Shown one piece after another: positions 703-8,681 of a DNA stretch of 8,683 nucleotides. The notes beneath the pieces are model-generated. The model searched no databases and was not told the DNA's origin. It saw nothing but the letters and a program-made list of their open reading frames with translations. The translations under genes and the position numbers were made by a program. Within the stretch, counting starts at the first letter, position 1. Each line of letters begins with the position of its first letter. This stretch comes from Thermoplasmata archaeon (GTDB taxonomy: Archaea; Thermoplasmatota; Thermoplasmata; Thermoplasmatales; GCA-001856825): the NCBI GenBank assembly GCA_021792355.1, contig JAJYUV010000040.1, positions 1 to 8,683 on the forward strand. The letters run 5' to 3'.

Positions 703-1479
703 TTATCGTAAGATGTTTTCCCTTAGACTGTCGAAGAACTTTCCAGCCTCCTCATAATCTCTGGCCAGAATTATGTGTTTCAGGAACTCCAATCTGGAGG
801 TTATTCTTTCGAGTTGCTTTATTGACTCTGAGTTGAAGAGTATTTCAGAAAGGAGACTGTCGTCCTCTGACAATATACCCTTGGCGAGTTCCAAATGTTT
901 CCTGAAGTTGGTTCCTGGGATGGCCTTTGTGTCTACGCACGCAGCGAATACCATGGATGAAGAGAATGGTAAGGTCAGGGAATATGCCATCATGGTGTCA
1001 TGTTCACTGAACGAAAATTCGTATAACTTCAATCCAATCTTTTCGTAAAATCCGCGGAAAATGTTCTTCCCTACTTCGTGTGATTCTTTTATGATTATTG
1101 CGCTCTCTCCCTTAGGTTTCTTCATATCAGCGTTAGTCGGCCCGAACATGGGATGAGAGGAAACAAACCTGTGCCCGCTGTTAAGATAATAAGTTGATAT
1201 ATCTCCCTTTATAGATGATATGTCCGCCAATATACACTCCTTTGGAAGGTATGGAACTACTTCTTCGAATACTCTTATAGTGTTTCCAAGTGTGACGGCG
1301 TTTATCAGTATGTCCGGTCGATAGCCGGCGATATTACCAAGCGACGATAGCACCTCCACCCCAGAGATTCCAGCCGTTCTATTCGGATCAGAATCGTATA
1401 CGGATATGTCCCAGTCCTCTTTCAGAACATTGGCAAGCCACTTTCCCATCCTTCCCGTGCCTACGATTGTTGCCCTCAT
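703..1479 (-). CDS. tyrA: Prephenate dehydrogenase, monofunctional (TyrA)
   Basis: TyrA oxidatively decarboxylates prephenate to 4-hydroxyphenylpyruvate using NAD(P)+, the committed step to tyrosine, in the cytoplasm. The N-terminal Rossmann fold opens with GTGRMGKW (residues 7-14); the aspartate in YDSDP after the second strand favours NAD. SSHPMFGPT carries the catalytic histidine (His109), and a second conserved site is SEHD (His160). The C-terminal helical part with FRKHLELA and ILFNS resembles the E. coli TyrA type (YRLELA). No chorismate mutase or ACT domain is present, so prephenate must come from the mutase domain of PheA. I chose the ATG at 1479: it overlaps the pheA stop as ATGA and has AGGAG 9 bases upstream. 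The alternative TTG at 1488 directly abuts that AGGAG. The product is 258 residues with a TAA stop. Oddity: LPF stands where LRHF or LPH is usual. It is the last gene of the operon. Confidence 0.9.
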   Translation of the reverse strand: MRATIVGTGRMGKWLANVLKEDWDISVYDSDPNRTAGISGVEVLSSLGNIAGYRPDILINAVTLGNTIRVFEEVVPYLPKECILADISSIKGDISTYYLNSGHRFVSSHPMFGPTNADMKKPKGESAIIIKESHEVGKNIFRGFYEKIGLKLYEFSFSEHDTMMAYSLTLPFSSSMVFAACVDTKAIPGTNFRKHLELAKGILSEDDSLLSEILFNSESIKQLERITSRLEFLKHIILARDYEEAGKFFDSLRENILR

Positions 1480-2534
1480 AATTCCCAACTCCTATAGCAT
1501 CCCAACAGCCTAAATCCAACAGTACCACGTTTAATTTTCCTCAGGGCTCTTCCTACATTGCTTTCTGAATAATGCCCCTTAAAATCTATCAGGAACTTCG
1601 ATCTGCCAGTAGAGTCCCTCGATGGAATTGACTCGATCATTGTCAAATTTATCCCCTCATCCTTGAATACGTTCAGTACCGTTGTCAGCGCGCCGACCCT
1701 GTCGTCTGTCAGGAACGTGATGGAACACTTACTTCCCTTTCTATGAAGCTTCTTTCTAGAAAGAACGATGAACCTGGTGTAATTGTATCTTGAGTCCTCA
1801 ATCTCCTCCTTGAGGATGTTTAATCCGTAGATACTGGCGCACGCTTTACTTGCGATTGCTGCTGCTCCGGCTGGTCTCTCTCTAGCAATCATACTCGCCG
1901 CCCCAGCGGTGTCATAGAATGGCCTGGGCTCCATTTTGTTTCTTGCAATGAAATCCCTGCATTGGGCAAGCGCCTGAGGATGGGAATACACGACCCTTAC
2001 GTCCTCAAGAGAAACTTCCTGATGGCTAAGCAGGGAATGGTGAATCTGTAAGGTCACTTCACCTACGATATTCAGCTTCCCTACGGCAACAAGATGACTC
2101 ACAGGAGTAACTGCTCCCTCTGATGAATTTTCAATGGGAACGACACCAACGTCGAAGTCTCCATTAAATACTCCTTCAAACACATCAGAAAAATTCCTGC
2201 AGGGTACTGGAATGACGTCTTTGTCAAATTCTCTGGAAGCCATCTCTCCAAATGCCCCCCTCTCCCCCTGGAACGCAGCAAGCCTGTGCCCTTCTTGCTG
2301 AAGCTTCTTAGATTCTGACATTATGCTTTGGTATAGCCCTTGTATAAAATCTGGCCTTATAGGCGGACTTGATTTCTCTTTCAGGGAACGCAATATCTGA
2401 TGCTCCCTCTTCTTGTCCTCTATTTTACTCTTCGTCCTTCCTGCTTGAGCGGAAAGCGTCATCCTACGCTCCAGAAGGCCAAAAATGTCGGAATCTATTT
2501 GATCTATTTCTTTCCTAATCTCCTTTAAATCCAT
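1476..2534 (-). CDS. pheA: Bifunctional chorismate mutase / prephenate dehydratase with ACT domain (P-protein)
   Basis: This enzyme converts chorismate to prephenate and prephenate to phenylpyruvate, the phenylalanine branch. Residues 1-85 form an AroQ-type helical mutase with R7, R24, K35, R43-E44, S75 and Q79 at the expected active-site places. Residues 86-260 form the dehydratase: AFQGERGAF, VVPIENSSEGAV, YSHPQALAQC, DTAGAASM and the catalytic Thr-Arg-Phe at 253-255. Residues 270-350 form an ACT domain for phenylalanine feedback, with GAL at 281-283; the usual ESRP motif reads ESIP (301-304). The length, 352 residues, is near that of E. coli PheA. The start ATG has AGGGG (2543-2547) 8 bases upstream. 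It follows aroA-aroC by 19 bases and overlaps tyrA by 4. Its mutase also supplies prephenate to TyrA, so one domain feeds both branches. Confidence 0.95.
   Translation of the reverse strand: MDLKEIRKEIDQIDSDIFGLLERRMTLSAQAGRTKSKIEDKKREHQILRSLKEKSSPPIRPDFIQGLYQSIMSESKKLQQEGHRLAAFQGERGAFGEMASREFDKDVIPVPCRNFSDVFEGVFNGDFDVGVVPIENSSEGAVTPVSHLVAVGKLNIVGEVTLQIHHSLLSHQEVSLEDVRVVYSHPQALAQCRDFIARNKMEPRPFYDTAGAASMIARERPAGAAAIASKACASIYGLNILKEEIEDSRYNYTRFIVLSRKKLHRKGSKCSITFLTDDRVGALTTVLNVFKDEGINLTMIESIPSRDSTGRSKFLIDFKGHYSESNVGRALRKIKRGTVGFRLLGCYRSWEL
1489..1493 (-). promoter_or_regulatory. Shine-Dalgarno site that fixes the tyrA start
   Basis: AGGAG on the minus strand lies 9 bases before the ATG at 1479 and inside the end of pheA. 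It directly touches the in-frame TTG at 1488, too close for use, so the ATG is preferred. Confidence 0.7.
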
Positions 2535-2553: not shown

Positions 2554-4935
2554 TCATATGTCTCCTGATACCATCATGAGATCAGCTATGGTTAGTGCGG
2601 CCATCGCTTCTACAACAGGTGGGGCCCTAACTGCTATGCACGGATCGTGCCTACCCATGACAGAAATCATTTCTTCCTTGCCCTTTGAGTAATTAACTGT
2701 TCGCTGCACCCTTGAAATGCTCGATGTGGGCTTGAAAGCCACCTTAAACACTACTGTCATCCCGTTGCTGATCCCCCCGAGGATCCCGCCAGCGTTATTT
2801 GTAAGAGTCACGATCCTATCATCTCGTATAGCAAACGGGTCGTTGTTCTCGCTTCCTTTCATTCCAGCCCCCCTGAAGCCAGACCCGAACTCTACACCTT
2901 TGACCGCGGGAATTGCAAACATGGCTCTCGAAATCTCACTCTCTAGAGAATGAAATATTGGTTCCCCAACTCCTACCGGCAAGCCAACAATCCTGCATTC
3001 AACAATTCCCCCTAGAGAGTCTCCCTGCTTCCTGGCATCCTCTATAGCTCTTTGCATCTCTTTAGATTTCTCCGGATCAATGCATCTTATGACCCCTTCC
3101 GTTTCTGCATTTTCAATCTCTTCGTCGCTCGGATTAAAATCGCTCTTTATTGTTCCTATCTGTACAATGTGAGAGAGAACCCTGACACCTCTTGTTGCAA
3201 TTATTTTCTTTGCCACGGAACCTGCAGCCACGAAAGTGGCCGTCATCCTACCAGAAAGGAATCCCCCTCCCCTGTAGTCAAACACACTTCCATACTTCCG
3301 CCTTGCAGTATAATCTGCGTGCCCAGGTCTTATAAGTCCTTTTCTTTTTATGTACGCATCAGAATTAACGTCCTTATTCCTGATCTCCATCCTTATCACC
3401 TCTCCTGTCGTAATTCCCTCCTTTAGACCACTAAGGATTTCAACTGAATCAGGTTCCCTCCTGGTTGTGGTAAGGATCGTTGTGCTTCTTCTCTTGTCTA
3501 ACTCCCTCTGTACATATTCTCTTTCGACCGTGATTCCTCTGGGCGCTCCTTCCAGAACTGCACCAATTCTCCTACCATGGCTTTCCCCGTAGACAGAGAC
3601 TTTCAGAATTTTTCCAAGGGAGTTGCTTATTGTAGTTACATCCCCCCCAAGTGCACGCAGGTGGTCGAAGAAATCAGGATAGGACTTTTTGATAGCAGTA
3701 GGACCACCCACGATGGTTTTCCCACTTCTGACCAATCCTGCGACGCTACTGCTCATCACTAGCCTGTGATCCTGAAAGTTCAAGAATACGGGTGAGCTCA
3801 AGTCCATTCCTCCCTGAATGCTTAATGCATTTTCTTCTACGCTTATTTTGCAGCCCAGGTCATTCATCATCCGTTCGGTTGAATCGACCCTATCGCTTTC
3901 CTTGAACCTCAGTCTCCTTATCCCTTTCAAAAGAGTCGTACCTTTTGAGCATGCGGACACAATAGCTAGCACAGGGACCAGATCAGGTGTGTCTCTCACA
4001 TCTATTTCGCAACCGGACAAATCGCTTCTCCATACGGTGACTGAAGAATCTTTAAGTTCTACTGCGGCACCCATGGATTTCAGAAACGCAATAATCCTCT
4101 TGTCACCCTGTTTCGATTCTCTTCTCAAGTTTCTTACTGTAACCCCTCCTTCTCCTCCGGCAAGAACCCCAGCTGCTAGAAGGTAAGCTGACGATGTGTA
4201 GTCCCCCTCAATCGTAATTTCCGATGCCTTGTAAGTTTGCCCTCCTTGAACTGTTATCTTCCTGCCATCAGGAGTCCTCTGAACCGAAATTCCGAATCTT
4301 TCAAGGATATCAATGGTGAGCTCAACATAGTCTTTTGATTCTAGGTCTGTAGTTATTGTGATATTGCTTTCGCCGTGGAGAAGAGGGAGAGCAAAGAGGA
4401 GTCCTGATATGAATTGTGAACTAACGTTCCCACTTATTTTGACCTGACCTCCTGAGAGTTTTCCTTTACTTGCAATTGTGAACGGAAGGCTACCAATGTC
4501 CCGCAAATACTCAACAGAAGCACCTAGGTCTTCGAGCACAGACAGCAATTCCAGAACAGGCCTCTTTTCCAAGCTGGGACGACCGATAAAAGAAATCTTC
4601 CCCCCAGATATTGCTGCTATCGGTATGAGGAAACGCATTGTGGAACCGGATTCTTTGCAGTCGATCTTCCCTTCCTTGATGTTGAATACACCTCCTATTC
4701 CTCTTATTACGATTTTCTCTTCGCTTTTGGAAAGTATCTCAGCTCCCATCGATTTGCATGCCTGTAGCGTTGCCTCGGTGTCATCGCATAACAGAGGGCC
4801 GTATACAGTGCTCACCCCCTCCGCAAGTGCCGCACATATCAGAGCGCGGTGAGTCTGACTCTTTGACGGTGATGCCGTGACTTCTCCCTCAACTGTAGAT
4901 TTACAAATCTCCATCTTCACTCCACAGTCATTCAT
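2554..4935 (-). CDS. aroA-aroC: Fused EPSP synthase - chorismate synthase (AroA-AroC)
   Basis: One 793-residue chain catalyses the last two common steps: shikimate 3-phosphate + PEP to EPSP, then EPSP to chorismate with reduced FMN. The EPSP synthase part (about 1-431; 4935-3643) shows SKSQTHR (24-30), ESGSTMR (95-101), SSQ (172-174), DTPD (315-318), KESDR (345-349), DHR (389-391) and KKSYPDF (416-422). The chorismate synthase part (about 437-793; 3627-2557) shows NSLGK, GESHG (450-454, His453), RPGHADY (His539), KYG and GRHDP (761-765). Both parts are near normal length, so both look functional. The linker is only about five residues, and the chorismate synthase part has no ATG, GTG or TTG before its active site. 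The start ATG overlaps the previous stop (ATGA) and has AGGTGG 6 bases upstream; an internal ATG at 4914 is an alternative. The gene ends in TGA. Confidence 0.93.
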   Translation of the reverse strand: MNDCGVKMEICKSTVEGEVTASPSKSQTHRALICAALAEGVSTVYGPLLCDDTEATLQACKSMGAEILSKSEEKIVIRGIGGVFNIKEGKIDCKESGSTMRFLIPIAAISGGKISFIGRPSLEKRPVLELLSVLEDLGASVEYLRDIGSLPFTIASKGKLSGGQVKISGNVSSQFISGLLFALPLLHGESNITITTDLESKDYVELTIDILERFGISVQRTPDGRKITVQGGQTYKASEITIEGDYTSSAYLLAAGVLAGGEGGVTVRNLRRESKQGDKRIIAFLKSMGAAVELKDSSVTVWRSDLSGCEIDVRDTPDLVPVLAIVSACSKGTTLLKGIRRLRFKESDRVDSTERMMNDLGCKISVEENALSIQGGMDLSSPVFLNFQDHRLVMSSSVAGLVRSGKTIVGGPTAIKKSYPDFFDHLRALGGDVTTISNSLGKILKVSVYGESHGRRIGAVLEGAPRGITVEREYVQRELDKRRSTTILTTTRREPDSVEILSGLKEGITTGEVIRMEIRNKDVNSDAYIKRKGLIRPGHADYTARRKYGSVFDYRGGGFLSGRMTATFVAAGSVAKKIIATRGVRVLSHIVQIGTIKSDFNPSDEEIENAETEGVIRCIDPEKSKEMQRAIEDARKQGDSLGGIVECRIVGLPVGVGEPIFHSLESEISRAMFAIPAVKGVEFGSGFRGAGMKGSENNDPFAIRDDRIVTLTNNAGGILGGISNGMTVVFKVAFKPTSSISRVQRTVNYSKGKEEMISVMGRHDPCIAVRAPPVVEAMAALTIADLMMVSGDI
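3640..3648 (-). other. AroA/AroC domain joint with a run of seven G
   Basis: Codons 430-432 of the fusion read GGG GGG GAT, giving seven consecutive G on the minus strand (C at 3642-3648). The joint lies between the terminal EPSP synthase residues (RALGGDV) and the chorismate synthase N-terminus (SNSLGK). With one G fewer the frame would read GGG GGG ATG TAA, ending EPSP synthase at once. With one more, the frame runs on to a TAG near the GESHG codons. The fusion therefore rests on the exact length of this homopolymer. Confidence 0.75.
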
Positions 4936-6242
4936 TCCAATCCACCTATCTCTCTGATTATTTCTTCAGCCACTACTTCAACCCCTTTTCCATCCGTTTC
5001 GATCTCTGCGTCCTTGGCAATATCGTAATAATGTTTTCGGGCTGAAAGCAGCTTCTCTACCTTCTGGTAATCAATTTCATCCCGACTTCCATTCAGTAAT
5101 GGGTGGGAGGTGCTACCGTTCAATCTTTCCATCACAGTTATGGGTGAAACGTTCAGAAGAACGATGAGTCCACTCTCCTTCATGCGGTGAATGTTGTCGT
5201 AGTTAAGGACTGCGCCTCCCCCAGTTGCAACCACGATACCTTTCCTGATGCTCAAGCCTTCGATGGCCCTCTTTTCCATCCCTCGAAACTCATACTCTCC
5301 TAACCCCTCTATAATGTTCTTTACCGTACTACCAAATTCCTTGGAGATGAGATTATCTGTATCCGCGAATTCCATCTTCAAGGAATTGGCTATGAGCTGA
5401 CCTACACTACTCTTTCCGCTTCCCATAAATCCAACAAGGTAGACGTTCCTTCTCCCACATCTATTGTTCTCAGAAATCTTTAGTCTTGCAGATTCCATCA
5501 TCCCATCCTTGTCGGGATCGACCCCGGTCCATAACTTGAAGGCCTTGACCCCCTGATTGACGAGCAGTTGTAACCCGGTAACGGTCCTGCACCCCCTAAT
5601 TTCAGCGTTTCTGATCAGCTCAGTTTTACGGGTCGCATAGGCTGCGTCCACAACCAGCAGGTCCCTTCTCATGAATGTTGATGATACTGGCGAAGGTTCT
5701 CCATTCATACCGACTGGGGTACAGTTGCAAACTATGTCTGAATCCTTTATTTCTCTTCCAGTGGACTCTTCTCCCATTTCCTTCCTCCCAAGCATCTTTG
5801 TCTCGACTCCTTCTTGTTCCAGGCCAAATGATACCGCCCTTGCCATCCCCCCTCGACCTAGAATCGTTGCTTTTTTCCCTTTGAGGTCGCCGATTGCTTC
5901 ACTTATAGCCTCCACGGCCCCGGTGGCATCTGTATTGTAACCTTTAAGGTTACCTTCGTCGTTTACGATAGTGTTGACAGCACCTATTTTTTGGGCTGTT
6001 TCGTCCAGCTTATCTATGTACCGGATGACTTCCATTTTGTGAGGCATCGTCACGTTAATCCCTTTTACATCCAGATCCCTCAGTGTTCCAATACACCTTC
6101 CTAACTCTCCAAGTTTGACCTTTATCGGAAAATATACGGCATCTACGCATGAACTACGGAAGGCATAATTTTGGATGGATGGGGAAATGGAGTGGGAAAC
6201 AGGGTCCCCAATCAGGCAGTACAGACTCTTGTTTGCCATCAT
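4932..6242 (-). CDS. aroE-aroK: Fused shikimate dehydrogenase - shikimate kinase (AroE-AroK)
   Basis: This 436-residue chain reduces 3-dehydroshikimate with NADPH and then phosphorylates shikimate with ATP. The dehydrogenase part (about 1-258) has GDPVSHSISP (12-21), NVTMPHK with catalytic Lys69, GAVNT, NTDATG with Asp105, the nucleotide loop GRGGMARA (129-136) and CTPVGM (174-179). After a short polar linker the kinase part (about 266-436) has a Walker A GFMGSGKSS (271-279, Lys277), FADTD (292-296), EFRGME with Arg320, and ATGGGAV (339-345). The lid reads STSHPLL, with His380 where RPLL normally has Arg; Arg402 (ARKHYYDIA) is kept. This is a P-loop kinase, not the GHMP type usual in archaea. 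The start ATG at 6242 overlaps the aroD stop (ATGA); a second ATG follows at once. No clear Shine-Dalgarno site is seen, so it probably depends on coupling to aroD. Confidence 0.93.
   Translation of the reverse strand: MMANKSLYCLIGDPVSHSISPSIQNYAFRSSCVDAVYFPIKVKLGELGRCIGTLRDLDVKGINVTMPHKMEVIRYIDKLDETAQKIGAVNTIVNDEGNLKGYNTDATGAVEAISEAIGDLKGKKATILGRGGMARAVSFGLEQEGVETKMLGRKEMGEESTGREIKDSDIVCNCTPVGMNGEPSPVSSTFMRRDLLVVDAAYATRKTELIRNAEIRGCRTVTGLQLLVNQGVKAFKLWTGVDPDKDGMMESARLKISENNRCGRRNVYLVGFMGSGKSSVGQLIANSLKMEFADTDNLISKEFGSTVKNIIEGLGEYEFRGMEKRAIEGLSIRKGIVVATGGGAVLNYDNIHRMKESGLIVLLNVSPITVMERLNGSTSHPLLNGSRDEIDYQKVEKLLSARKHYYDIAKDAEIETDGKGVEVVAEEIIREIGGLE
4942..4947 (-). promoter_or_regulatory. Shine-Dalgarno site for aroA-aroC
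   Basis: AGGTGG on the minus strand lies 6 bases before the ATG at 4935, inside the 3' end of aroE-aroK. It supports the overlapping ATG as the main start. Confidence 0.6.
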
Positions 6243-6892
6243 AAGATCGAACTCATTATATCCTTCATTCTTTCGAATTCAATCTGACCTTCTGCAGTCT
6301 CCTTGCCCCTAGAAAGTGAAGCATAGGTGAAGGGTGCTCCCATTAGCGGGCCCACAAGTCGGCTGATCCTTCCTTTCTCCCCCATTGCCACAACAACTGT
6401 ATTTTCCAGATGACCTAGAAGACCGATGAGTCTGGCAGTATCTGAAAGTGTATTTGCCTTGCATGCGATCTTGAGTATGTCTCCCCCCATCCACGTGAAT
6501 TTCTTTGCAATGTTGAGAAGGAACTCATCTTGAGGCGTCAGTCTTTGATTGTGGTAGGACAAGATCACCTTGCATCCATTTCTTCTTGCTTCTCTGATAA
6601 TCTTCTCCCTGTACCATTTCTTTGCGTCAATCTCTATGTCCACGTACGCTGCTCCGGATTTTATTGCCTCCAACATGAGTCTCATTCTATCTTCGTCTTT
6701 CAGTTTTCCAGCCCTGCACGTTGCAATCATCTGAGCACGAACAGAGAATATCTCCCTGATTTCTTCGGGCGTGAAATTCACCCCGTCAAGCCTTATCTCT
6801 GCCATTTCCAATCCTTTTGTCTCCTCCAGAATTTCAGGAACCGATAACCCAGAAATGCTCACACATATCTTTGAAACTATTGCTTTTTTCAC
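6239..6892 (-). CDS. aroD: 3-Dehydroquinate dehydratase, type I (AroD)
   Basis: AroD dehydrates 3-dehydroquinate to 3-dehydroshikimate through a Schiff base. Class I motifs are in order: EIRLD (substrate Glu/Arg), ATCRAG, YVDIEID, ILSYHNQRLTP with the catalytic His114, DILKIACKA with the Schiff-base Lys141, GRISR, and the closing EGQI. The length of 217 residues is typical of compact archaeal type I enzymes. I place the start at the GTG at 6892, not the GTG at 6898. The first makes a GTGA overlap with the aroB stop and lies 7 bases after AGGAGG (6900-6905); the second is 1 base from that site. Its own TGA overlaps aroE-aroK. Residue numbers here use the shorter start. Confidence 0.93.
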   Translation of the reverse strand: MKKAIVSKICVSISGLSVPEILEETKGLEMAEIRLDGVNFTPEEIREIFSVRAQMIATCRAGKLKDEDRMRLMLEAIKSGAAYVDIEIDAKKWYREKIIREARRNGCKVILSYHNQRLTPQDEFLLNIAKKFTWMGGDILKIACKANTLSDTARLIGLLGHLENTVVVAMGEKGRISRLVGPLMGAPFTYASLSRGKETAEGQIEFERMKDIMSSIL

Positions 6893-7920
6893 TTGCACAC
6901 CTCCTGAACCGCGTACTTCAACTCCCGCTTCTTGATCTTGTAAATAATTCCATTTCCAATCATTTCTGGCAATGCGATGTTGATTGAGTCCCCAGAGCTC
7001 TTTTTGTCCTTAGAGATAGCTTCTAAAACATCATTACCACTTATTCCTGATCTTGTCGGCAAGCCTATTGCTTTCAGAAGCTCTTCTATTCTTAAGGCTT
7101 CTGCTATGGGAAGAAACCCCTTGCGCGCTGAGAGTCGTGATTCGGCCACCATGCCAATCGCTATTGAGTAGCCATGAGGAAGACCGGCCACCTTTTCAAT
7201 AGCATGACCTACGGTGTGTCCGAAATTCAACTTCATTCTTTCTCCATTATCCGTCTCATCCTTTCCTACAACGTTTATCTTGGCTGAAATTGTCTCAGAA
7301 ACAGCATATGCAAGACTATGATCATCCAAGGACAATATGTCTGAATGATTCTCCTCCACGTACTCAAATAGTTTGCTGTTCAGGATAACCCCGCACTTGA
7401 TGACTTCCGCCATACCGGACATTAATTGATCGGACGGCAGAGTTTTCAAAAATGAAAAATCGATTAGGCAAAATTCTGGCTGCCTTACAGTTCCTATCAT
7501 GTTCTTGAATCCTCTGAAATTTACCCCATTCTTTCCACCTATGCTTGCATCTACCTGAGCAAGAAGGGTTGTTGGAGCAAACCCGAAGGGTATCCCTCTC
7601 ATGAAAGTAGAGGCCGCAAAACCTGTTACGTCAGAGACTGTTCCTCCCCCCACCCCGACGATCTTGGACGACCTGTCGACGCTGTGCTCCAAAAAATATT
7701 CGTAAATTCTTTCAACGCTTCTTAGTGTCTTTGCACTTTCGCCGGGCTCAAGGACTATCATGTCTAGGTCGTTCATTTTGTCACCGTATATTCCCAGGAC
7801 GTTTTTGTCTGTCACCAGCAAGACCTTCGTTCTACCTCTGATAGTCGAGATGAATCCTTCAAAATCCGAAAAAATCACCTTCGTAGAACCACTTTTCGCT
7901 TTGAGCTTCATGACTTTCAT
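6889..7920 (-). CDS. aroB: 3-Dehydroquinate synthase (AroB)
   Basis: AroB cyclises DAHP to 3-dehydroquinate using catalytic NAD+ and a divalent metal (Zn2+ or Co2+). Visible motifs: [13 protein letters not shown] (89-101, NAD-binding loop), [20 protein letters not shown] (109-128), [16 protein letters not shown] with metal ligand Glu172, [11 protein letters not shown] with His235 and His239, and [11 protein letters not shown] with His249. The length of 343 residues matches stand-alone bacterial and archaeal AroB proteins. The ATG at 7920 overlaps the aroF stop (ATGA) and has GGAGG 7 bases upstream; another ATG lies three codons inside. AroB with a DAHP synthase shows that the classical entry is used, not the aminosubstituted route (AroA'/AroB') of many methanogens. 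Its TGA overlaps the GTG of aroD. Confidence 0.95.
6900..6905 (-). promoter_or_regulatory. Strong Shine-Dalgarno site that fixes the aroD start
   Basis: AGGAGG on the minus strand, inside the 3' end of aroB, lies 7 bases before the GTG at 6892 and 1 base before the GTG at 6898. Only the former spacing is workable, so it shortens AroD by two residues. Confidence 0.75.
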
Positions 7921-8681
7921 ACCAATCCCTCCATGGTAGACCTGACGGTCCTAGCCTTTCTTACCAGTCCTGAAAACTGGTCGGGTGTGAGTGCCTGATC
8001 CTTATCACTAAGCGCCTGAGAGGGGTCTCTGTGCACTTCTATGATCAACCCATCTGCACCAGAAGCAACTGATGCAAGACTCATAGGTTCTATCAGGCTG
8101 ACCTTTCCGGTGCCATGAGAAGGGTCAACGATCACAGGTAGATGGGTCAGTTCCTTCAGCGCTGGTACTGCACTGAGGTCAAGGGTGTTACGAGTATATG
8201 TCTCAAATGTTCTAATGCCGCGCTCACAGAGAATTACGTCACGATTGCCTTCCTTTAATATGTATTCGGCGCTGTTCAGCCATTCTTCCAATGTTGACTG
8301 CATCCCTCTCTTCAGAAGAACAGGTTTCCTGGTCTTTCCTACTTCTTTCAGAAGAGAAAAATTTTGCATATTTCTGGCACCTACCTGTATCACGTCGACA
8401 TAGTCGCAAACCCATCTGACGTCCCTTGTATCTAATACCTCTGAGATGATCGGTAGGCCTGTTATCTCTTTGGCCTTCTCCAGAATCTTCAAGCCCTTAA
8501 GTCCCAACCCCTGAAATGAATAGGGGGATGTTCTCGGCTTGAATACCCCTCCTCTAAGCATGTCGGCTCCTGCCTGCTTAACCTTTACGGCAGTCTCCAA
8601 CAACTGTTCCTCACTTTCAACACTGCATGGTCCTCCTATGACCGTTAGCCCATTCCCAATTTCCACATCTCCTACTCTCAC
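7917..8681 (-). CDS. aroF: DAHP synthase, type I-beta, without regulatory domain (5' end may be cut)
   Basis: This enzyme condenses phosphoenolpyruvate with erythrose 4-phosphate to DAHP, the first step of the pathway. It resembles the short archaeal (Pyrococcus-type) KDO8PS-like group: GGPCSVES (16-23, metal-ligand Cys19), [17 protein letters not shown] (42-58), [27 protein letters not shown] and VDPSHGTGK. No N-terminal ferredoxin-like/ACT domain and no fused chorismate mutase is visible, so there is no obvious site for feedback control. The first usable start seen is a GTG at 8681, giving 254 residues, but the frame stays open to the window edge. Related proteins often have about ten more N-terminal residues, so the true start may lie outside. 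The TGA stop overlaps the aroB ATG. The operon promoter is not in the window. The symbol aroF is one of several in use (aroG, aroA in Bacillus). Confidence 0.93.
7928..7932 (-). promoter_or_regulatory. Shine-Dalgarno site for aroB
   Basis: GGAGG on the minus strand lies 7 bases before the aroB ATG at 7920, within the last codons of aroF. Confidence 0.7.

Follow-up and report, generated by a model that had tools for sequence, protein, structure and literature searches.

An EPSP synthase–chorismate synthase fusion gene in the aromatic operon of a Thermoplasmata archaeon

What a pathway gains from gene fusion is a question for which the shikimate enzymes provide a classic case. In the 8,683-nucleotide stretch of Thermoplasmata DNA analyzed here (the window), which comes from an uncultured relative of acid-mine archaea, the last two steps of this pathway appear to be joined: EPSP synthase (AroA) and chorismate synthase (AroC) are read from one frame at positions 2554..4935 of the minus strand. 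This locus raises the question of whether the frame encodes one bifunctional enzyme or two neighboring genes merged by an error and, if the fusion is genuine, how its two parts are connected, how it arose, and how it relates to the shikimate fusions already described.

Two enzymes in one unbroken frame

The frame starts with an ATG codon and encodes 793 amino acids with no internal stop. The Pfam family EPSP_synthase (PF00275) matched residues 13–426 (profile positions 5–417 of 417, E = 5.6e-103), and Chorismate_synt (PF01264) matched residues 444–788 (profile positions 1–327 of 327, E = 4.1e-124). Both halves also scored above the curated cut-offs for full-length enzymes, with 417.7 bits against 287.25 for TIGR01356 (aroA; profile positions 1–413 of 415) and 408.4 bits against 212.2 for TIGR00033 (aroC). 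The first-pass annotation, which had read two full-length domains in this single 793-residue frame, was thereby borne out.

The AroA half (3646..4923, minus strand; approximately residues 5–430) contains Lys25, Asp318, Glu346, Arg349, and Lys417, of which the first four are invariant and the last is nearly invariant in our alignment A1. We take these residues, matched via alignment, to be the counterparts of active-site K22, D313, E341, R344, and K411 of the Escherichia coli enzyme. The AroC half (2557..3627, minus strand; residues 437–793) contains His453, His539, Arg762, and Asp764; both histidines and Asp764 are invariant in A1, and the two conserved histidines, together with the aspartate of the GRHDP motif, are presumably the catalytic residues. 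In the predicted structure of the window protein, fold comparison matched residues 4–432 to EPSP synthases and residues 437–793 to chorismate synthases. Among solved structures, the best stretch covered both domains in none of the best 60 of 68 matched sequences.

Could a missed stop codon or a frameshift error have merged two adjacent genes? Separate relatives are often overlapping neighbors, so that one base error could join aroA and aroC, and five of the 59 two-domain proteins recovered from the protein databases (P0052, P0054, P0055, P0056, and P0059) lack the joint motifs, have incomplete AroA matches, and look like frame errors themselves. However, the spacing at the joint is identical in 49 of 49 clade proteins and the frame is free of stops in eight genomes, which refutes an artefact for this clade; we give it virtually no credence. 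The same unbroken frame was present in MAG YP3.bin60 (L001; 94% identical to the window) and in I-plasma (L002; 85% identical). Across the window's order, 87 of 117 genomes yielded a match, and the fused frame was found in eight of them (G001, G002, G316, G317, G319, G321, G323, and G324; 51–94% identical), at full length in six and cut by contig ends in two. None of the other 79 matching genomes had a joint-spanning match among the matches listed. Similarly, 178 genomes in an even phylum sample of 292 had a match, and only that of G001 spanned the joint among the matches listed. These counts (8 of 117 in the order and, among the matches listed, 1 of 292 in the phylum) agree with the earlier judgment that an A–C fusion is uncommon.

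Family searches found one EPSPS domain in each of the eight genomes, located in the fused frame in every case, and one AroC each in G001, G002, G316, G317, G319, and G324; the AroC of G321 and that of G323 are each in two pieces, split over two contigs. These searches detected no further AroA or AroC in the eight genomes. With the joint unbroken in all eight, the proposal of a true fusion that gives one polypeptide was supported. None of the members of the fused clade that were read had a joint broken by a stop into two genes; more distant relatives in the same order do have two separate genes. Three loci considered as fusions (L003–L005) were ruled out, as their AroA and AroC lie in separate frames.

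The first-pass annotation had also proposed a search for proteins carrying both domains, and this search showed that the fusion is not unique to the window. Both Pfam domains were present in 59 of the best 120 of 419 protein matches, and 35 of the best 120 matches of a profile search had the two domains, P0241 being the one new protein among them. In each search, scoring was limited to the approximately 8000 candidates that shared the most words. Protein databases already contain such fusions, labeled with one-enzyme names. Named organisms among P0001–P0050 belong to Thermoplasmata (P0006), Micrarchaeota (P0024, P0031, P0044, and P0049), Aenigmarchaeota (P0034 and P0039), Methanobacteriota (P0025), and Deltaproteobacteria (P0043 and P0047). 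Related archaea and DPANN archaea carry this joined gene too, and we therefore regard it as a shared invention and not as a sequencing error.

The selective regime of the two halves was estimated from dN/dS. Against L001, it was 0.18 in the AroA half and 0.10 in the AroC half; against L002, it was 0.13 and 0.11, respectively. Judged from these comparisons (0.10–0.18), purifying selection is acting on both halves. We found no point in favor of the view that one half is catalytically dead and acts as a scaffold or regulator; the key residues are present in both halves, dN/dS is low in both, and no second copy that could take over the lost activity was found in the eight relatives, which makes this view highly improbable. 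On the sequence evidence, we place the probability that the gene encodes a genuine, obligate bifunctional enzyme on one chain at roughly 0.9. Both activities would be present in the fused chain: the EPSP synthase part would convert shikimate-3-phosphate and PEP to EPSP, and the chorismate synthase part of the same chain would then convert EPSP to chorismate. Chorismate synthase is an FMN-dependent homotetramer, and the fused chain would assemble on the AroC homotetramer with four AroA parts attached. Fusion would supply the last two pathway enzymes in equal (1:1) amounts and in one place, which may be its main benefit.

A joint of constant length

The joint lies at 3628..3645 (minus strand; residues 431–436, GDVTTI). 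The sequence at the window joint is ...KKSYPDFFDHLRALGGDVTTISNSLGKILKVSVYGESHG, and the codons over it read CTT GGG GGG GAT GTA ACT ACA ATA AGC. Fold matching indicated that the EPSPS fold stops at approximately residue 432 and the AroC fold starts at approximately residues 435–437, so that a linker is absent; residues 432–436 are predicted to form a beta strand. From KKSYP to GESHG, the window protein is identical to P0001 at every residue.

All 49 proteins of the clade (P0001–P0049) show a spacing of 33 residues between the KSYP and G.SH motifs. Elsewhere the spacing is 36 residues in P0050, 42 in P0051, 34 in P0053, 33 in both P0057 and P0058, and 89 in P0241. A 33-residue spacing is not confined to the clade, as P0057 and P0058 share it and both lie outside. 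In the 49-row clade alignment (WINDOW and 48 proteins), residues 406–466 contained no gaps. The joint is the more variable part of the protein, with a mean majority fraction of 0.55 over residues 424–446 against 0.61 and 0.68 for the two domains, and of the equally variable stretches elsewhere in the alignment, which overlap one another, 18 of 175 were gap-free. We take this constancy as evidence that the joint is structurally fixed, because the length of a loose linker would be likely to differ from one protein to another.

AlphaFold models of the window protein (pLDDT 91.1, pTM 0.90) and of P0044, which is 44–45% identical (pLDDT 90.9, pTM 0.90), both showed a strand at the joint, the alignments behind the two models having most rows in common. 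A pTM of 0.90 for two large domains suggests confident mutual placement. The fixed-length, linker-less joint and the high pTM of both models fit a fixed domain geometry, and they are uninformative about EPSP transfer.

The first-pass annotation had raised direct passage of EPSP between the active sites. Such channeling, in which the two docked domains would keep a fixed arrangement, with EPSP going from AroA to AroC without bulk mixing, supplements the bifunctional-enzyme explanation and does not replace it. AroA and AroC catalyze consecutive steps, the linker-less joint keeps its length across the clade, and the models of two distant members reach the same pTM and both show a strand there, all of which would accord with channeling. 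However, pTM differs from a contact map, and a strand that does no more than complete the fold of one domain would predict a fixed joint just as well. We consider channeling unlikely, and we retain the bifunctional enzyme as the preferred reading.

It had also been noted that the AroC half lacks an ordinary start codon of its own. This observation was confirmed, as no in-frame ATG, GTG, or TTG is present between residues 410 and 480 of the window fusion. The ATA codon at 3628–3630, which had been placed near the lost start methionine, is indeed there, but it encodes Ile436; the joint methionine of fused relatives aligns with Thr434 (ACT, 3634–3636), two codons upstream of the ATA.

These codons bear on whether the frame could give two products, the full fusion and a free AroC whose translation would begin internally, at the joint. 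In five of the nine fused genes seen at the DNA level (G316, G317, G319, G321, and G324), the joint reads GGA-GGN-GAC-NTC-ATG. The Shine-Dalgarno-like GGAGG preceding the joint ATG fits the 16S tail of G001, G002, G319, and G324, and when 150 other internal Met sites were compared with each of the nine joints, just 0 to 14 of them equaled its predicted pairing. Where the genes are separate neighbors, aroC likewise starts at the end of aroA. However, the window, G001, G002, and G323 have ACN (Thr) in place of the joint ATG, and the strongest 16S pairing (-16.0) belongs to G001 and G002, both without that ATG; for the window itself, the sequence argues against a free AroC. Position 434 is Met in 25 of the 49 clade proteins, Leu in 11, and something else in 13 (Thr in 7, another residue in 6). 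Moreover, synonymous-codon shuffles were as strong in 8–72% of draws. The peptide Gly-Gly-Asp alone thus gives about the observed pairing, and nothing in these shuffles suggests that an internal site is under selection. Two products are accordingly very unlikely, and an internal ribosome site kept by selection was unsupported by the synonymous-codon null. The GGAGG-like motif is possibly a relic of the aroC start. A single chain with both activities remains the reading that we prefer.

Origin and transfer of the fused gene

Separate genes were surveyed in 29 Thermoplasmatota loci, which are the best-scoring AroC matches in the 292-genome phylum sample after G001 and not a random draw. In 25 of these 29 loci, aroA and aroC share a strand and lie no more than 60 nt apart; the other four (L017, L018, L036, and L041) failed the distance or start rule for neighboring pairs. 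The two genes are in different frames in all 25 neighboring pairs, and overlaps of 1 to 8 nt occur in 21 of these. Within the order of the window, the genes for separate AroA and AroC are often far apart (for example, in G056 and G071) and adjacent in some genomes (G204, G311, G325, and G326); our inference of a tandem ancestor accordingly draws on the wider phylum. Fusing a neighboring pair would require a small frame change plus the loss of a stop codon. We propose that the fusion of the main clade had one origin, in which a small shift of frame at the joint would have united a tandem aroA-aroC pair lying in different frames, and that the fused gene would then have passed between DPANN archaea and a Thermoplasmata lineage. 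Neither an unfused ancestor nor the unfused state of a donor lineage was found among the sequences examined.

In a tree of the concatenated domains, the window protein and 49 of P0001–P0050 formed one clade (SH-aLRT 90; 95 without P0050). In an AroC-only tree, 53 of 54 fused rows formed one clade (SH-aLRT 81), and P0050 fell with P0061 and P0062. Both trees leave out six proteins with partial or broken matches (P0038, P0052, P0054, P0055, P0056, and P0059), as well as L001, L002, and L003; L041 is also absent from the concatenated tree, and L050, L051, and L061 from the AroC-only tree. P0051, P0053, P0057, and P0058 lay outside the fusion clade in the two trees. Their positions, together with the 89-residue spacing of P0241, suggest that A–C fusions probably arose more than once.

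The relation of the fused AroC to the separate AroC of the order was determined in a 58-row AroC tree of chosen rows, in which three of the 13 "other" separate rows (L059, L070, and L071) belong to the order of G001. The fusion clade had a support of 83/79, so that in AroC alone its support was moderate in this tree as in the first. Eleven Thermoplasmata fusion rows, including P0010 and P0017, which were counted as Thermoplasmata from their place in the tree alone, nested among the fusions of other archaea, apart from eight separate AroC of the order. AU tests rejected a grouping of the 11 rows with these eight chosen separate AroC (p = 0.0073) and a grouping that added 13 more separate Thermoplasmatota AroC (p = 3.5e-5), although both p-values are somewhat flattering because the groups were named after the first AroC tree had been seen. 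The AroC tree thus sets the fused gene apart from the separate AroC of the order, which points to probable transfer between archaeal groups.

The fused gene lies in a compressed aromatic operon on the minus strand. Its order from 5' to 3' is DAHP synthase (the first step; 7917..8681, truncated at its 5' end where the window stops; the L001 and L002 proteins have 274 aa), aroB (3-dehydroquinate synthase; 6889..7920, overlapping DAHP synthase by 4 nt), aroD (type I 3-dehydroquinate dehydratase; 6239..6898, overlapping aroB by 10 nt), an aroE-aroK fusion (shikimate dehydrogenase and shikimate kinase; 4932..6242, with 4-nt overlaps with both aroD and aroA-aroC), aroA-aroC itself, pheA (chorismate mutase, prephenate dehydratase, and ACT; 1476..2534, starting 19 nt past aroA-aroC), and a tyrA-like prephenate dehydrogenase gene (703..1488, overlapping pheA by 13 nt, with a mechanical TTG start). 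The genes overlap by 4 to 13 nt throughout, with the gap before pheA as the sole exception. This seven-gene order is kept in six of the eight fused genomes; in G321 and G323 the first five genes are in order, and the contig ends inside aroA-aroC.

A similar pattern was observed for AroE-AroK, as the Micrarchaeota protein P0140 grouped with the window in a quick tree (22 rows, SH-aLRT 98). Comparison of the lists of A–C and E–K proteins gave ten putative shared contigs, recognized by equal lengths of the longest contig, one of which (length 498134; G317:C3) was confirmed by sequence. Based on the AroC tree, the AU results, and the similar AroE-AroK pattern, horizontal transfer of the fused gene, and perhaps of the operon, is likely. 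The direction of transfer is weakly supported, because only 10 of the 50 proteins P0001–P0050 carry organism names. Micrarchaeota have been reported with Thermoplasmatales hosts, and mutual gene exchange has been discussed (PMC8975820, PMC12892359); the words "shikimate" and "chorismate" are absent from the main texts of these two papers. With the fused gene as a marker, gene traffic between the DPANN archaea and the Thermoplasmata may be traced. The fuller picture, in which a rigidly docked, linker-less AroA-AroC would pass EPSP directly and would be encoded in a compressed operon exchanged between episymbiotic archaea and Thermoplasmata, is doubtful as a whole and is offered tentatively.

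The compression differs among relatives. E–K and A–C are fused in the window, and some relatives have D–E–K and A–C; P0166, a 633-aa AroD-AroE-AroK chain, is the partner of an A–C fusion in one putative shared contig (length 25806).

Relation to other shikimate fusions

AROM, the pentafunctional enzyme of fungi and protists, has the domain order AroB-A-K-D-E. It resembles the fusion described here in that several shikimate enzymes, including an EPSPS domain, share one chain, and the model of the window protein aligns to the EPSPS part of the solved AROM chains 6hqv and 7u5s. However, AROM contains no chorismate synthase, whereas the window chain holds the A and C domains only, with B, D, and E–K encoded by other ORFs and thus carried on other chains. 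The window protein is accordingly no AROM. It belongs with the A–C clade (P0001–P0049), having AroA followed by AroC in one frame, the 33-residue spacing, and a place in the same clade of the tree.

Among archaea, a survey of gene fusions names AroD-AroE and AroE-AroK for chorismate synthesis (PMC11237513), and the terms aroA, aroC, EPSP, and carboxyvinyltransferase are absent from its main text. These are likewise archaeal shikimate fusions, and the operon of the window has its own AroE-AroK. In the abstracts and passages of the open-access literature covered, no description of an AroA-AroC fusion was found, and the A–C fusion is not among the shikimate fusions named in these texts. The strings "aroA-aroC" and "aroC-aroA" in those passages were gene lists in strains or constructs and not fusion proteins. 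We consider the novelty of the fusion clear and well supported but moderate; shown channeling would raise it.

EPSPS also forms two-enzyme chains with cytidylate kinase (AroA-cytidylate kinase, NF008816) and with TyrA (TyrA-AroA, NF011381), but in neither is the partner AroC; the window protein scored 262.5 bits against a cut-off of 943 for the former and 194.8 bits against 902 for the latter. AroC is likewise fused to chorismate mutase, to shikimate kinase, and, in the K–D–E–C protein P0061, to several enzymes, but again the partner is not EPSPS. In both AroC trees, no protein lacking AroA lies closer to the AroC of the fusion than P0061 and the AroC-chorismate mutase protein P0062.

A deep clade with a constant joint thus stands beside relatives whose genes remain overlapping neighbors. 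This setting offers a natural comparison of the separate pair, the fusions with a joint methionine and a Shine-Dalgarno-like stretch, and the fusions without them.

Further AroA-AroC chains

Four chains that join EPSP synthase (AroA) to chorismate synthase (AroC), P0051, P0053, P0057 and P0058, fell outside the main clade of such fusions in our trees, and two of them (P0051 and P0053) carry a C-terminal chorismate mutase. In a further AroA-AroC chain, P0241 (965 aa), the joint is much longer than in the main clade. These five proteins probably represent independent AroA-AroC fusions. In the AroA-AroC tree, P0043 and P0047, both labeled Deltaproteobacteria, nest amid fusions that include Micrarchaeota-labeled ones; their labels may reflect either mis-binned contigs or transfer to bacteria. 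Residue 102 of the fused protein is Phe; our own reading of the alignment puts it at the position of Pro101 in E. coli EPSPS.

AroC with other fusion partners

Among the best 120 of 419 protein relatives, AroC was a promiscuous fusion partner. P0061 (1047 aa) is a K-D-E-C chain. Within the set P0068, P0069, P0075, P0090, P0092 and P0118, AroC is joined to shikimate dehydrogenase, kinase and chorismate mutase, to AroD, to AroB or, as AroC-chorismate mutase, to prephenate dehydrogenase or dehydratase.

Neighboring genes and window ends

An AroE-AroK fusion (4932-6242) lies directly upstream of aroA-aroC; some of its relatives form a longer AroD-AroE-AroK chain (P0166, 633 aa). The DAHP synthase gene is cut by the window end at 8681; in the relatives L001 (MAG YP3.bin60) and L002 (I-plasma) it is a 274-aa frame that begins farther upstream. 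Downstream of tyrA, an A+T-rich stretch (1-702; GC 0.36 versus 0.46) aligns with L001 only from base 472, except for a 105-base match (74%) elsewhere in L001, and no open stretch longer than 49 codons was found in bases 1-760. A chorismate mutase-prephenate dehydratase fusion (pheA) occupies 1476-2534. An archaeal fusion/fission survey reports this fusion, among archaea, in only a few DPANN and TACK members (PMC11237513), whereas here it occurs in a Thermoplasmata lineage.
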